DNA from: Flavobacteriales bacterium
GTDB taxonomy: Bacteria > Bacteroidota > Bacteroidia > Flavobacteriales > Flavobacteriaceae
DNA: 64,000 nt
Assembly (NCBI GenBank): GCA_013205245.1
Contig: JABMNH010000064.1
Coordinates: forward strand, 62,001-126,000
Direction: 5' to 3'
Under the pieces are notes generated by a model. That model did no database searches. It was not told where the DNA came from and saw only the letters and a program-made list of their open reading frames with translations. How positions within the stretch are numbered: the first letter of the stretch is position 1; every line of letters begins with the position of its first letter. Made by a program: the position numbers and the translations under genes. This document shows positions 35,829 through 47,863 of this stretch, piece after piece.

Positions 35829-36911
35829 TTATTCCCGTTTCATAATAATTTCTTGGTGTTCAATTGACTCTTGATGTATCACTTTAAAGATATTACTTAT
35901 AAACTCTTCGCTCAATCCAGAACCTGTGCTTTTAGCCACCATTTTATCTATAATTTCACTCCACCGTTTGCTTTGCAAAACAGCCACATTCTTTTCTTTC
36001 TTAACCTCACCAATTTTATCGGCAACACGCATTCTCTCTGACAATAATTCAATTAATTGGTTGTCTAAAAAGTTGATTTGCGTTCTAAATTCAGTTAATT
36101 TATCAATGTAATTTATATCGCCAAACTCAGGTTTTCTGATGCGTAAATCTTTGGTTATTTGCACCAAAGTATCTGGTGTTATTTGTTGTGCGGCATCACT
36201 CCAAGCTTCGTCTGGTGTGCAATGTGTTTCTATCATAAGCCCATCAAAATTTAAATCGAGGGCTGTTTGCGATACTTCAAAAATTAAATCGCGGCGTCCA
36301 GCAATATGTGATGGATCGCAAATAATAGGCAAGTTTGGGTAATCGCGTTTTAAATCAATCGGAATTTGCCATTTTGGTTTGTTGCGGTATTTGTCTTTTT
36401 CGTAAGATGAAAATCCGCGGTGAATAACCCCTAATTTTGTAATGCCCGCTTTATAAAAACGTTCTACAGCACCCATCCATAAAGCATAATCTGGATTAAT
36501 CGGATTCTTAATCAACACTATTTTATCTGAGCCTTTAATGGCATCGGCTATTTCTTGAACCACAAACGGATTAACTGTTGTGCGCGCGCCAATCCATAAA
36601 ATATCAATACCAAATTCTAAAGCCAATTTGGCGTGTTCTGCATTACCAACTTCAACAGTGGTAAGCATACCTGTTTGTTCTTTTACTTTTTGAATCCACG
36701 GCAAAGCTTTAACACCGTGCCCTTCGAATCCTCCTGGACGTGTTCTTGGTTTCCAAATACCTGCTCTAAATACAGTGGCGTCGGTGTTTTTTAATTGGTG
36801 TGCTATTTTTAAAACCTGCTCTTCAGATTCTGCGCTGCAAGGACCCGCAATTACTAAAGGGTGGTCTAATGACATGGCTTCTAACCACGGTCTAAAATTT
36901 TCGTTTTTCAT
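35829..36911 (-). CDS. Bifunctional DAHP synthase / chorismate mutase
   Basis: A 360-residue fusion. Residues ~1-265 form a 3-deoxy-7-phosphoheptulonate synthase of the KDO8P-synthase-like class (VIAGPCSAES, FRAGIWKPRTRPGGFEGHG, IICDPSHIAGRRDL, GLMIETHCTPDEAWSDA); residues ~270-360 an AroQ chorismate mutase (FRTQINFLDNQLIELLSERMRVADKIGEVKKEKNVAVLQ). It catalyses both the first step of the shikimate pathway and the branch to prephenate, a fusion usual in Bacteroidota. In many such fusions the mutase domain serves as a prephenate sensor that inhibits the synthase. Fourth gene of the attenuator-controlled operon. Confidence 0.94.
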   Translation of the reverse strand: MKNENFRPWLEAMSLDHPLVIAGPCSAESEEQVLKIAHQLKNTDATVFRAGIWKPRTRPGGFEGHGVKALPWIQKVKEQTGMLTTVEVGNAEHAKLALEFGIDILWIGARTTVNPFVVQEIADAIKGSDKIVLIKNPINPDYALWMGAVERFYKAGITKLGVIHRGFSSYEKDKYRNKPKWQIPIDLKRDYPNLPIICDPSHIAGRRDLIFEVSQTALDLNFDGLMIETHCTPDEAWSDAAQQITPDTLVQITKDLRIRKPEFGDINYIDKLTEFRTQINFLDNQLIELLSERMRVADKIGEVKKEKNVAVLQSKRWSEIIDKMVAKSTGSGLSEEFISNIFKVIHQESIEHQEIIMKRE

Positions 36912-36918
36912 GATTTTT

Positions 36919-37764
36919 TTACTTAATTTCTGATAAAATATTTTTTAAATGATGCGTGCTTTTCATAGACTTATAAAGGTCTGCTTCGGCCTCTTGTTTC
37001 AATAATTCCTTAAACTGATTTAAATTTTTGATATATTCTTCTAATGATTTTAAAATATTGTCTTTGTTCTGTATAAATATGGGTGTCCATGTGCTGGGCG
37101 AACTTTTTGAAAGCCGTACCGTTGATGCAAAACCACTACCTGCCATGGTGAAAATAGATTTTTCGTCTTTCTCTATTTCTAAAACCGTTTTGCCCAACAT
37201 AAAAGAGCTGATATGCGATAAATGAGATACATAAGCAATATGTCTATCATGCGCTTTAGCTTCCATAAAAGTAGTTGTCATTTGCAACGCATCAAAAAGA
37301 TTTAAAGCTTTTTTAAGAAAAATATTTCCCGATTTATTTGACTCACAAATGATGTTCTTTTTATTGATAAATAATTGCTTAAATGCCGCTTCTGGACCAG
37401 AATATTCTGTACCTGCTATTGGGTGTGCTGCTACAAAATTAATTCGCTTGGGATGGTTTTTTACAGCTTTACAAATAGCCGATTTAACCGAGCCAACATC
37501 AAAAACCAAGGTTTTTGGATTGATTAAATCTAAGACTTTTAAAGTTAATTCTGGCGCAAAATTAACTGGCACAGCTACAATAACAACATCCGCATTAGCG
37601 ACATCTTGCAAAGTGCCTAAACGGTTAACAATGCCTAATTCTAAAGCTTTGTTGGCATTCGTTTCATTGTTGTCAACACCAATAAGCATTCTGTTCTCAT
37701 TTTTTAAAGCCAATGCCATAGACCCGCCAATTAATCCCAAACCAAATACAACAATCGTTTCCAT
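36919..37764 (-). CDS. tyrA: Prephenate dehydrogenase
   Basis: A 281-residue TyrA: NAD-binding GLGLIGGSMALAL at the N-terminus, VVIVAVPVNF, FVAAHPIAGTEYSGPEAA and the C-terminal helical domain with HIAYVSHLSHISSFML. It converts prephenate to 4-hydroxyphenylpyruvate on the tyrosine branch. The start lies 1 bp from the aminotransferase stop. Confidence 0.94.
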   Translation of the reverse strand: METIVVFGLGLIGGSMALALKNENRMLIGVDNNETNANKALELGIVNRLGTLQDVANADVVIVAVPVNFAPELTLKVLDLINPKTLVFDVGSVKSAICKAVKNHPKRINFVAAHPIAGTEYSGPEAAFKQLFINKKNIICESNKSGNIFLKKALNLFDALQMTTTFMEAKAHDRHIAYVSHLSHISSFMLGKTVLEIEKDEKSIFTMAGSGFASTVRLSKSSPSTWTPIFIQNKDNILKSLEEYIKNLNQFKELLKQEAEADLYKSMKSTHHLKNILSEIK

Positions 37765-37765
37765 A

Positions 37766-38911
37766 TTATACGAGTCTTTTTAATGCTGTTTTTAAAAGTG
37801 TTTCTGATTCGCAAAGCGAAATGCGAATGTAATTTTTACCCTGACTTCCAAAAATGAATCCTGGGGTCACAAAAATGTTTTTTTCGGCCAATAAATAATC
37901 GGTTAAAGTTTCTGCATCTTTGTCTGAGGGTACTTTTCCCCACACAAATAAACCCACACTGTCTTTATCGTACGTACATTGTAAAGTATCCATAATTTGC
38001 CACACAATTTTACGGCGTTCTTGGTAAATTTTATTGAGATCTGTAAACCAACTATCAGCCGATTTTAAAGCTTCGATAGCACTTTTTTGGATGGCATAAT
38101 ACATGCCAGAATCCATATTACTTTTAACCTGTAAAACCGCATCAATATATTTTTTATGACCTAAAACCATACCCACTCGCCAGCCCGGCATGTTAAAGGT
38201 TTTGCTAAGAGAATTTAATTCAAGAGCGACCTCTTTTGCCTCGGGAAGACTTAATATACTTGTAGGATTATCGTTTAAAATAAAACTGTACGGATTGTCA
38301 TTCACCAACAATATTTTATGTTTTTTAGCGAATTTTATCAACTTGCTAAAGAGCGTTTTTGAAGCTTGAGCACCCGTTGGCATGTGTGGATAATTAAGCC
38401 ACATCAATTTAACGCCAGATAAATCTTGTTTTTCTAAAGCCTCTAAATCGGGTTGCCAATTATTGGCATCAGACAAGTTGTAAAAAACAGGTTCGGCATG
38501 TAATAACTTGGTTACCGATGTGTAAGTAGGATAGCCCGGATTTGGGATTAAAACCTTATCGCCTGCATTTAAAAATGCCAATGAAATATGCATAACGCCT
38601 TCTTTAGAACCCATCAACGGTAGGACTTCATTTTCTGGATTTAAAGAAACATCAAAACTGGTTTTATAAAAATCGGCCATAGCCTGACGCAACTCTAGCA
38701 GACCTTGGTAACTTTGATATTTATTAGCTTTAACCTCTAATGCGGCATTGTTAAGCGCATCGATTACATTAAGAGGCGGTGCTAAATCTGGGCTTCCGAT
38801 AGCTATATTTAGGATTGATTTGCCCTGCTTTTCTAAAGCACTAATCTCTCGCAATTTCTTAGAGAAATAGTATTCCTTAACGTCAGAAAGTCTGTTTGAT
38901 GGTGAAATCAT
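37766..38911 (-). CDS. Class I aminotransferase of the aromatic operon
   Basis: A 381-residue PLP aminotransferase (fold type I): NIAIGSPDLAPPLNVIDAL at the N-terminus, NPGYPTYTSV, NDNPYSFIL, and the PLP lysine in NSLSKTFNMPGWRVGMVLG. Lying between pheA and tyrA, it most likely makes phenylalanine and/or tyrosine from their keto acids; substrate range is inferred from position. Confidence 0.92.
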   Translation of the reverse strand: MISPSNRLSDVKEYYFSKKLREISALEKQGKSILNIAIGSPDLAPPLNVIDALNNAALEVKANKYQSYQGLLELRQAMADFYKTSFDVSLNPENEVLPLMGSKEGVMHISLAFLNAGDKVLIPNPGYPTYTSVTKLLHAEPVFYNLSDANNWQPDLEALEKQDLSGVKLMWLNYPHMPTGAQASKTLFSKLIKFAKKHKILLVNDNPYSFILNDNPTSILSLPEAKEVALELNSLSKTFNMPGWRVGMVLGHKKYIDAVLQVKSNMDSGMYYAIQKSAIEALKSADSWFTDLNKIYQERRKIVWQIMDTLQCTYDKDSVGLFVWGKVPSDKDAETLTDYLLAEKNIFVTPGFIFGSQGKNYIRISLCESETLLKTALKRLV

Positions 38912-38915
38912 AAGC

Positions 38916-39746
38916 CTAATTATTTTGTTGGTATTCGCCTAAAATTTTTAAGTGACTCACATGAGCCTCTAATTCTATTAAGGCCAGTTTATATTGTTCG
39001 TACGAATCAAATACAACATCCACAAAAAATGCATATTCAAAAGGCGTTTCTATAATGGGCATCGATTGTATTTTAGATAAATTGACTTTACGGTCTGCAA
39101 ATATTTTTAAGGCGCTACTCAAACTTCCCACTTGGTGCTTTGTGATAAATTTTAAAGATGCTTTGTTTATATGTGCCACTTCGTATTTTGGATTCACATC
39201 GTTTTGTAAAACAAAGAAACGTGTGGCATTATTTTTTATGGTTTGAATACTCTGTTCTAAAACAGTTAACTCATAAATATCGGCAGACACAAGGCTCGCC
39301 ACAGCGCCAACACCTTTTAAGTTCTCATTCTTAATTCGTTTTGCAGCCTGAGCAGTATCTGTATATTCTACAAGTTCTATATGAGGATACTTTTTAAAAT
39401 ATTCGCGGGTTTGCAACAGCGCCATTGGATGCGAATACACCATTTTTAAATCGGCTATTTGTTGGTTTGGCAACGCCATTAAATTTTGTTGGATGTTGAT
39501 AAAAACCTCACCTACTATTTTTAACCGGTTGTTATCTATAATGGCATAATTCGGAATTATAGATCCTGCAATTGAATTTTCTATAGCCATTACAGCAAAA
39601 TGCGCTGTATTTGTATGTAAACATTCTGGAATGTCGTGAAAGTTCACACAGCTAACCAAGGCGAACTCTTCATTAAAAAACCGACTTGTGGCTTCGTGAT
39701 GAAACGATCCTAAAATTCCCTGAATTGCTACTTTTTTTATTTCCAT
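38916..39746 (-). CDS. pheA: Prephenate dehydratase
   Basis: A 276-residue stand-alone prephenate dehydratase: catalytic domain to ~185 (AIQGILGSFHHEAT, FAVMAIENSIAGSI, and the catalytic TRF in NNATRFFVL) and an ACT regulatory domain after it (SLSSALKIFADRKVNLSKIQSMPI), including the phenylalanine-binding ‘ESRP-like’ segment. It leads to phenylpyruvate. First structural gene of the operon; the attenuator terminator ends only 15 bp before its ATG. Confidence 0.94.
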   Translation of the reverse strand: MEIKKVAIQGILGSFHHEATSRFFNEEFALVSCVNFHDIPECLHTNTAHFAVMAIENSIAGSIIPNYAIIDNNRLKIVGEVFINIQQNLMALPNQQIADLKMVYSHPMALLQTREYFKKYPHIELVEYTDTAQAAKRIKNENLKGVGAVASLVSADIYELTVLEQSIQTIKNNATRFFVLQNDVNPKYEVAHINKASLKFITKHQVGSLSSALKIFADRKVNLSKIQSMPIIETPFEYAFFVDVVFDSYEQYKLALIELEAHVSHLKILGEYQQNN

Positions 39747-39760
39747 TTCTAAACCATAAA

Positions 39761-39827
39761 AAAAGCCCCGTTAAACGAGGCTTTAGATTATTTATATAAT
39801 TTCATACAATTACATTAACAAAGCCTC
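39761..39827 (-). promoter_or_regulatory. Transcription attenuator: antiterminator and terminator of the pheA operon
   Basis: Three segments on the minus strand can pair in two exclusive ways. Segment 2, GAGGCTTT (39820-39827), is complementary over 8 bp to segment 3, AAAGCCTC (39777-39784). Segment 3 extended, AAAGCCTCG (39776-39784), also pairs with segment 4, CGGGGCTTT (39762-39770), with one G-U pair and a 5-nt loop, followed by a T run: an intrinsic terminator. Segment 2 overlaps codons 22-24 of the leader peptide, so a ribosome that finishes the leader hides it and favours termination, while one stalled on the aromatic codons leaves it free. Confidence 0.88.
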
Positions 39828-39890
39828 TCTTTTTATCATAAAATAAAAATAGAACCAATAATTAGTAAATGTAGAATAATTGTTATTCAT
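39810..39890 (-). CDS. Aromatic-rich leader peptide of the pheA operon
   Basis: A 26-codon ORF with ATG at 39890 and TAA at 39810-39812, too short for standard gene calls. Codons 5-17 read YSTFTNYWFYFYF; of the first 17 residues four are Tyr, four Phe and one Trp, with seven aromatic codons in a row at positions 11-17. It ends KREALLM. A ribosome held at codon 17 would cover about to 39828 and leave the antiterminator segment 39820-39827 exposed; a ribosome at the stop codon would cover it. It is therefore a sensor of charged tRNA-Phe and tRNA-Tyr (perhaps also tRNA-Trp), by the classical attenuation mechanism. Start is 20 bp downstream of the -7 box. Confidence 0.9.
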   Translation of the reverse strand: MNNNYSTFTNYWFYFYFMIKREALLM

Positions 39891-39909
39891 TGTTTTTTGT
39901 AATAAGTGG

Positions 39910-39939
39910 CAAATCTATAAATTAAAATATTAAAAGCAA
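39910..39939 (-). promoter_or_regulatory. Promoter of the leader peptide and pheA operon
   Basis: On the minus strand TTG (39937-39939) and TAGATTTG (39910-39917) are 19 bp apart, matching the Bacteroidota -33/-7 consensus. It places the transcript start just ahead of the leader ATG. Confidence 0.7.
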
Positions 39940-39968: not shown

Positions 39969-40844
39969 CTAAATATTGTCAATTATTCGCAATAATTCTG
40001 TCTTTATAAGGTCATCATTCTTAAAAACAATAAAATGTGAGCCACCTTTAATAGTTATCAAATCTAACATGTTGGCAGGCATTTGGTTTTTTATAAATGT
40101 TGCATTGGCATAAGGCACAATTTTATCTTTATCGCCATGATAATAAGTTACAGGGCGTTGTATTGTCTGCCAATCGGGTAACATGAGTCTTAATTCTTCG
40201 GCGTGACTTAGTTTTTCGTCTTCGGCCACTCTAAAAACTTTGGGAACCATCCAACGTGTAAGGCCCCACTTGGCAATTTTTCCAATTGCAAAATATTTTT
40301 CATCGGCGGGCGAAATAGCTGGCGCTATTAATACAACGTGTTTTATAATCTCTGGATGTAAGGCCACTAATTTAGCCGCAATAGTTCCGCCATAAGACCA
40401 CCCTATAACAACAGCATCTTTTACTTGATTTTCTTTAAGGATGCTAAAAGTACTCTCAGCTTGTTCGGTGAGCGAAGTTTCGGCTTTACCATAGTTAGAA
40501 TAACCATAACCCAATCGGTCAATAGAAATTAAATTGGCCTTTGTGTCTAGGATTGAATCTTTTAAATATCTGTAAAAATCGGATGAAGATCCTGGAGCGC
40601 CATGTAAAAAAAGGAGCGTTGGCAAATTGTTATCAAAGGGTTTTGATGCGATATAACGCATGGATTTTCCTTTGTAATTGGTGTGATATATTTTAGGTGT
40701 TCTGGTGTCTTTTTCAAAAGATTTAATAACATCTTTATCACTCATCCGTAAAGAAATACACGCATTTGCAAAAACTAAAAGCGCCACTAAAGACAGCGGA
40801 ATGATGCCTCTTTTCTTTTTAAAAAGACGACTGTATTTTTTCAT
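39969..40844 (-). CDS. Alpha/beta hydrolase, membrane-anchored
   Basis: A 291-residue alpha/beta-hydrolase with an N-terminal hydrophobic segment (IIPLSLVALLVFANACI) that may be a membrane anchor or lipoprotein signal. LLFLHGAPGSSSDFY holds the oxyanion region, GWSYGGT the nucleophile Ser, and GSHFIVF the catalytic His near the end. Probably an esterase, epoxide hydrolase or similar; substrate unknown. Located just upstream of the attenuator region on the same strand, 52 bp before the pheA promoter. Confidence 0.83.
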   Translation of the reverse strand: MKKYSRLFKKKRGIIPLSLVALLVFANACISLRMSDKDVIKSFEKDTRTPKIYHTNYKGKSMRYIASKPFDNNLPTLLFLHGAPGSSSDFYRYLKDSILDTKANLISIDRLGYGYSNYGKAETSLTEQAESTFSILKENQVKDAVVIGWSYGGTIAAKLVALHPEIIKHVVLIAPAISPADEKYFAIGKIAKWGLTRWMVPKVFRVAEDEKLSHAEELRLMLPDWQTIQRPVTYYHGDKDKIVPYANATFIKNQMPANMLDLITIKGGSHFIVFKNDDLIKTELLRIIDNI

Positions 40845-47447: not shown

Positions 47448-47838
47448 GGGGACGACTGGTTTTGACAGCGAGATCAATTAATCAGTAAGCATGCCGAGCG
47501 ATGATACAAATCTCGTAAAACTTGGTTTCGACTTATAAACGGCGAAAATAATTACGCTTTAGCTGCTTAATCTGAAATACAGTAGGATTTGAGCCTTGTC
47601 CCGCCAGGCGGGAAAGCTTTATGTCTCTTGAAAGCCTTGATTAACGGCGTTCTGTTAGAGGCATCGTAAATGTTAATCTAGAACTAAAATTGCTTCGATT
47701 TTAGTTTAACACTTAAGAAGCTAAGTTTAAAGTGGGCGGTTTTCGGTCAGCTTTAGGTCTAAAATTAATCGGAAACTAAGCATGTAGAAAACTTTTTGGT
47801 TGCTTGTTTGGACGCGGGTTCGAGTCCCGCCGTCTCCA
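47448..47838 (+). ncRNA. ssrA: Transfer-messenger RNA
   Basis: A one-piece tmRNA of about 391 nt. The 5' end GGGGACG pairs with CGTCTCC at the 3' end (7-bp acceptor stem with one G-U), and GGTTCGAGTCCC is the T arm; discriminator A at 47838, CCA not encoded. The tag ORF at 47541-47570 reads GENNYALAA then TAA, a usual flavobacterial tag. It rescues ribosomes stalled on broken mRNA and marks the product for proteolysis. Between tag and 3' domain there is a GC-rich hairpin, TCCCGCC-A-GGCGGGA, near 47600. Confidence 0.96.
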
Positions 47839-47863
47839 CGGATAAAACTCCAAATTATACTAA

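Follow-up and report, generated by a model that had tools for sequence, protein, structure and literature searches.

A putative transcription attenuator with a mixed aromatic leader peptide upstream of pheA in Flavobacteriaceae and related bacteria

The pheA operon and the anatomy of its leader region

The stretch of DNA analysed here (64,000 nucleotides, referred to as the window) comes from a draft genome (79 contigs, 2.38 Mb in total), whose nearest relatives judged by PheA belong to the Flavobacteriaceae or Flavobacteriales. On its minus strand lies an operon of four genes whose products supply precursors of both phenylalanine and tyrosine (Table 1). The preliminary description had placed pheA and tyrA together in this operon, and the Pfam PDT and PRK08507 matches agree with it, while the same operon also holds an aminotransferase and a DAHP synthase-chorismate mutase. 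Elsewhere in the window, at 47448-47841 on the plus strand, there is a tmRNA gene (Rfam RF00023, 147 bits).

Upstream of pheA, a consensus promoter, a 26-codon ORF, two mutually exclusive hairpins and a T run had been proposed, and each of these was recovered on the minus strand, exact to the base; reading codons 11-17 directly likewise returned the seven successive aromatic residues that had been claimed. The promoter is predicted from its sequence and is of the flavobacterial type. The motif TANNTTTG alone has 100 matches in the window, and the combination TTG-N17..20-TANNTTTG has nine, counting both strands. A Shine-Dalgarno site is apparently absent from the leader start at 39890, and the leader ATG of the relatives favours A at -3 and -6.

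Table 1. Features of the pheA operon and its leader region, in window coordinates.
Feature	Coordinates	Strand	Details
Promoter, flavobacterial-type (predicted from sequence)	39910..39939	-	-33 TTG at 39939-39937, 19-nt spacer, -7 TAGATTTG at 39917-39910
Leader peptide ORF	39810..39890	-	26 codons, MNNNYSTFTNYWFYFYFMIKREALLM; stop codon 39812-39810
Control codons 11-17	39840..39860	-	Tyr Trp Phe Tyr Phe Tyr Phe (YWFYFYF)
Segment 2	39820..39827	-	GAGGCTTT, antiterminator 5' half, within the Glu-Ala-Leu codons near the end of the leader
Segment 3	39776..39784	-	AAAGCCTCG, common to terminator and antiterminator
Segment 4	39762..39771	-	ACGGGGCTTT, terminator 3' half; 10 bp with 39784-39775
Terminator hairpin	39784-39762	-	AAAGCCTCGT-TTA-ACGGGGCTTT
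T run, intrinsic terminator	39758..39764	-	Seven T; 3' end of attenuated RNA expected nearby
pheA, prephenate dehydratase	38916..39746	-	276 aa; ATG at 39746; Pfam PDT 9e-54; first gene of the operon
Class I/II aminotransferase	37766..38911	-	Pfam Aminotran_1_2; 4 bp past pheA
tyrA, prephenate dehydrogenase	36919..37764	-	NCBIfam PRK08507, 344.6 bits against a cut-off of 295; 1 bp past the aminotransferase gene
DAHP synthase-chorismate mutase fusion	35829..36911	-	Pfam DAHP_synth_1 and CM_2; 7 bp past tyrA
Alpha/beta hydrolase gene	39969-40844		pheA leader region downstream of it on the minus strand

The antiterminator is a perfect 8-bp pairing, GAGGCTTT being exactly complementary to 39784-39777, and since this stretch is used by both hairpins the terminator and the antiterminator are mutually exclusive. 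The predicted fold of the terminator has an energy of -12.9 kcal/mol (z -4.9) and that of the antiterminator segment -15.9 kcal/mol (z -4.5), and in neither case did any shuffled sequence fold as well. In the locus of a member of the same genus with a PheA 75% identical (L112), the promoter boxes and their spacing are identical and the hairpin is kept, and the leader reads MKNIQFTLANFWFYYYFKITKGAICVFN.

Conservation of the aromatic reading frame

The comparison covered 80 PheA loci of species genomes and additional loci from the same genus, family, order, class and phylum, with the best 30 of 130 genomes having a pheA match used at the family level. The aromatic run had been put forward as a feature that relatives should share, and a small ORF rich in codons for the three aromatic amino acids is indeed found 5' of pheA in 132 of 142 dereplicated loci (those with distinct upstream sequence), mostly 50-270 bp upstream of the gene, and in every Flavobacteriaceae locus examined. 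Conservation goes beyond T-richness and is specific to the reading frame: at the seven final codons of the run, counted over the 132 loci, Phe, Tyr or Trp makes up 95% in frame 0 but 37% and 33% when the other two frames are read, there are no stops in frame 0, and the third base is nearly always T or C. All 132 leaders contain Phe, 131 contain Tyr and 90 contain Trp (42 lack it), and the control residues counted over the last 14 codons are 718 Phe, 418 Tyr and 90 Trp. The genes downstream are also kept, with the aminotransferase gene after pheA in 124 of the 132 leader-bearing loci and tyrA downstream in 118.

At the end of one contig (L050:1-146) the start of the leader is lost, whereas its run of aromatic codons and the sequences of the hairpins are intact. 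Adding this truncated contig brings the count to 133 of 142 pheA loci, and it indicates that automatic ORF filters undercount the pheA leader. Within the window, searched in six frames, a seven-codon aromatic run is unique, and two six-codon runs occur elsewhere, so that the run alone is weak evidence. It is the position and the conservation of the leader, and not the composition of its run, that set it apart from chance.

Covariation of the two hairpins

A hairpin followed by a T run (at least five T in seven positions were required in the relatives) separates the leader from pheA in almost every locus, and the shuffle test on the pheA leader loci gave p<=0.05 in 123 of 131. Terminators can also be recognised by eye in three loci where the automatic finder had called none (L121, L127 and L143).

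The preliminary description also expected relatives to keep the alternative pairing through compensatory changes, and both hairpins bear this out. For the terminator, a structure-blind alignment of 85 loci showed 96% standard pairs between segments 3 and 4, with changes on both sides at nine of the nine pairs, and sliding one partner by a single base lowered the standard pairs to 65% or less. For the antiterminator, the structure-blind MAFFT alignment was rejected; it placed segment 2 off by one base in the GTCCC clade, gave 63% paired cells between segments 2 and 3 and was improved by a one-base slide. Because of this misregister, a swap test and an alignment anchored on segment 3 were used instead. 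The region after the run pairs with its own segment 3 at a mean of -12.3 kcal/mol and with that of other species at -9.2 kcal/mol. In the anchored alignment of 81 loci, each of the core columns 4-8 is paired in 94-100% of the loci; column 7 shows 27 double changes (GC to AT) and column 5 shows 12, and permuted partners, which were given the identical optimisation, score lower by about ten standard deviations. This figure and the z of -13.5 for own versus swapped partners (89 distinct segments) ignore the kinship of the sequences; a non-structural explanation is unlikely because many distinct segments contribute and segments 2, 3 and 4 change together.

We also looked for a segment-1 stem with segment 2, and no conserved 1:2 pairing was found, a crude test reaching p<=0.05 for 12% of the 85 loci. 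The pause or protector hairpin usual in enterobacteria may be missing here and, if the 1:2 stem is truly absent, an untranslated leader would read through rather than terminate.

Distribution of the leader

Beyond Flavobacteriaceae, the leader is present in five order-level families (f2, f3, f9, f13 and f15) and in eight class-level families (f17, f21, f28, f30, f46, f47, f50 and f55), with doubtful leaders in four more (f18, f31, f64 and f70). It was not found in f12, f27, f39 and f69, in the tiny genomes of f16 and f40, or in f5, where PheA is divergent. The loci called as leaderless were inspected by eye. Three loci from genomes of 0.5-0.6 Mb, which are probably those of endosymbionts, have no leader (L124, L125 and L145), nor do L131-L133, whose pheA is divergent with about 30% identity, and in L122, L136 and L137 it is apparently missing. 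Twenty of 30 class-level genomes without a hit apparently have no prephenate dehydratase at all. The simplest reading of this distribution is that the pheA leader is old in the class and was lost in some lineages.

Among the pheA loci of other classes in the phylum, about 20 showed no leader, and one leader was found outside the class of the window (f78, locus L168 in G264:C45). This locus encodes a closely similar PheA, preceded by the aromatic leader NYYTGFGFYYFYLT and by a terminator hairpin; inheritance and transfer are both conceivable.

Other leaders in the genome and relation to known systems

Two further amino acid operons of the same genome carry leaders. An ORF, MFNNLHHHHLQTNERNRVS, with four His codons lies 132-72 bp upstream of hisG (L201, G000:C16) and is followed by a terminator, AAGCTCGCCTGATAGGCGGGCTTTTTTTT; ORF and terminator together form a probable His attenuator. 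Upstream of trpE (L202:691-805, G000:C53), a leader ORF with three Trp codons, MKIQLTNTWWWTNELQGS, matches the Rfam Bacteroid-trp family (RF01692) with 49.7 bits against a gathering threshold of 49. The His and Trp leaders suggest that leader-peptide attenuation is probably a general habit of this genome. Scanning the genome for other runs of aromatic codons returned eight matches, fewer than in the reversed control and none of them in an attenuator context.

The pheA leader of enterobacteria is rich in Phe, is devoid of Tyr or Trp clusters and forms a pause stem, whereas the leader of the window mixes Phe, Tyr and Trp, and a pause stem was not detected in it. Multivalent attenuators, in which a single leader has control codons for more than one amino acid product of its operon, are found in Escherichia coli at ilvGMEDA and thrABC; their specificity is for branched-chain amino acids or Thr/Ile, whereas the pheA leader is aromatic with a nearly uninterrupted tract. 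Attenuation has reportedly been surveyed comparatively by Lopatovskaya and co-workers in 2010. In Rfam, no family covers the pheA leader. The enterobacterial PheL family (RF01859, Phe_leader) shares with it the control codons, the antiterminator and the terminator before pheA, and its model shows a weak resemblance, 35 bits at 39756-39840, below the gathering threshold of 55. Bacteroid-trp is likewise a leader-peptide element of Bacteroidetes, but with Trp codons and trp genes, and its model has no hit in the pheA region. The Lactococcus Leu/phe leader (RF01743) is a mixed leader that includes Phe, but it belongs to another phylum and does not match at the pheA leader.

Bacteroid-trp and the Leu/phe leader are both listed in the survey of Weinberg and colleagues (2010; PMC2864571), Bacteroidetes are not mentioned in a 2010 attenuator survey (PMC2965389), and a transcriptome of B. 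thetaiotaomicron (PMC7366714) mentions leader-like sORFs and not pheA. The preliminary description knew of no described case in this family, which is too strong. A transcriptome study of Flavobacterium psychrophilum (2021; PMC9723704) describes in its main text structured 5' elements upstream of pheA, hisG and other genes, conserved in other Flavobacteriaceae genera and devoid of Rfam hits, and sees strong clues of leader-peptide attenuation before amino-acid operons. Compared by that main-text description, its pheA element agrees with that of the window in gene, position and bacterial family, but a leader sequence, a pairing scheme, a mixed-aromatic specificity and a spread beyond the family do not appear in that text. 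The pheA element is thus partly anticipated by the F. psychrophilum study and is broader and better defined here, and it very probably belongs to a classical kind of switch.

Proposed mechanism and alternative explanations

The element combines a leader ORF with cognate codons, an intrinsic terminator and an exclusive antiterminator, the features of an attenuator. In E. coli, the ribosome covers about 10 nt of mRNA beyond the codon in its A site. Segment 2 starts at a modal distance of 10 nt past the last aromatic codon across the loci, and in the window codon 17 and GAGGCTTT are 12 nt apart, so that the stall geometry argued for the window leader agrees with the ribosome's downstream footprint and its spacing is conserved. 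The stop codon lies at a modal 11 nt past the start of segment 2, and in a second class of leaders it falls just at segment 2. Judged from E. coli footprints, segment 2 would be accessible while a ribosome is stalled on the run and would be covered once the ribosome sits at the stop codon, in both classes of leader.

With anatomy, frame-specific conservation, covariation, spacing and operon content established, the pheA leader is very probably a classical ribosome-mediated attenuator of transcription, responsive to aromatic amino acids, a reading made from sequence. We infer that RNA polymerase would start at the promoter and a ribosome would enter the leader at 39890. Under a shortage of charged tRNA for Phe, Tyr or Trp, the ribosome would stall with its A site on a codon within 39860-39840 and its downstream edge, some 10 nt on, would end before segment 2; segments 2 and 3 could then pair, and the antiterminator would block the terminator and allow the whole operon, from pheA to the DAHP synthase-chorismate mutase gene by way of the aminotransferase gene and tyrA, to be transcribed. 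When the aromatic tRNAs are charged, the ribosome would reach the stop codon and cover segment 2, the terminator of segments 3 and 4 would form, and transcription would end prematurely at the T run.

Which amino acids are sensed is a separate matter. A mixture of Tyr and Phe is near-universal in the leaders, and mixed sensing of these two is therefore likely; we are less sure of Trp, which has one codon in this species and none in 42 leaders. A real switch that responds in essence to Phe alone or to Tyr alone, with the other aromatic codons tolerated because TTY and TAY are one base apart, is rather unlikely, even if Phe is the commonest control residue, Trp is missing from 42 of 132 leaders and the enterobacterial counterpart is Phe-rich. 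Tyr is found in 131 of the 132, usually alternating with Phe, the other one-step neighbours Ser, Leu and Cys are nearly missing from the run, and the operon makes precursors of both amino acids.

A dense aromatic tract at a fixed spacing from segment 2 would also suit an arrest peptide, in which the nascent aromatic chain and not hungry codons halts the ribosome. Known arrest peptides retain specific residues, whereas order and identity vary in the pheA leaders (FYFYFYF, FYFYFFF, FFYFFFYFF and YWFYFYF), and the cognate pathway is that of the target operon, which makes arrest very improbable. Slightly less probable still is a terminator under the control of a protein, a small RNA or a metabolite, the ORF being incidental or encoding a functional micropeptide. 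A second regulator is conceivable, but the Rfam riboswitch and T-box models have no match at the pheA leader, and what is conserved in the ORF is mainly its aromatic identity and its spacing from segment 2. Coincidence in an AT-rich sequence would have in its favour the two six-codon runs of the window and the eight incidental-looking Phe/Tyr pattern matches elsewhere in the genome, but position, frame and covarying structure are kept over many genera and families, and its probability is negligible.

Implications for the class

Amino-acid control is little studied in this major class of bacteria, for which a Trp leader was the only one found in Rfam, and the pheA leader adds a sharply defined, experimentally tractable regulatory RNA. 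Bacteria of this class initiate translation largely without Shine-Dalgarno sites. Beyond the attenuator itself, we tentatively put forward, at somewhat less than even chances, a wider reading: an ancestral, class-wide attenuator that integrates Phe, Tyr and Trp in one tract, uses two alternative hairpins only and reads through by default if untranslated, and that would imply a polymerase kinetically coupled to a leading ribosome independent of Shine-Dalgarno sites throughout the class. Transcription-translation coupling, which the mechanism needs, was not found established for the phylum in the literature. Since the mechanism needs a ribosome close behind RNA polymerase, a class-wide attenuator would be indirect evidence of such coupling. 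The leader ORF is below gene-caller length and merits annotation and an Rfam family, and the pheA leader provides a ready reporter for testing coupling.
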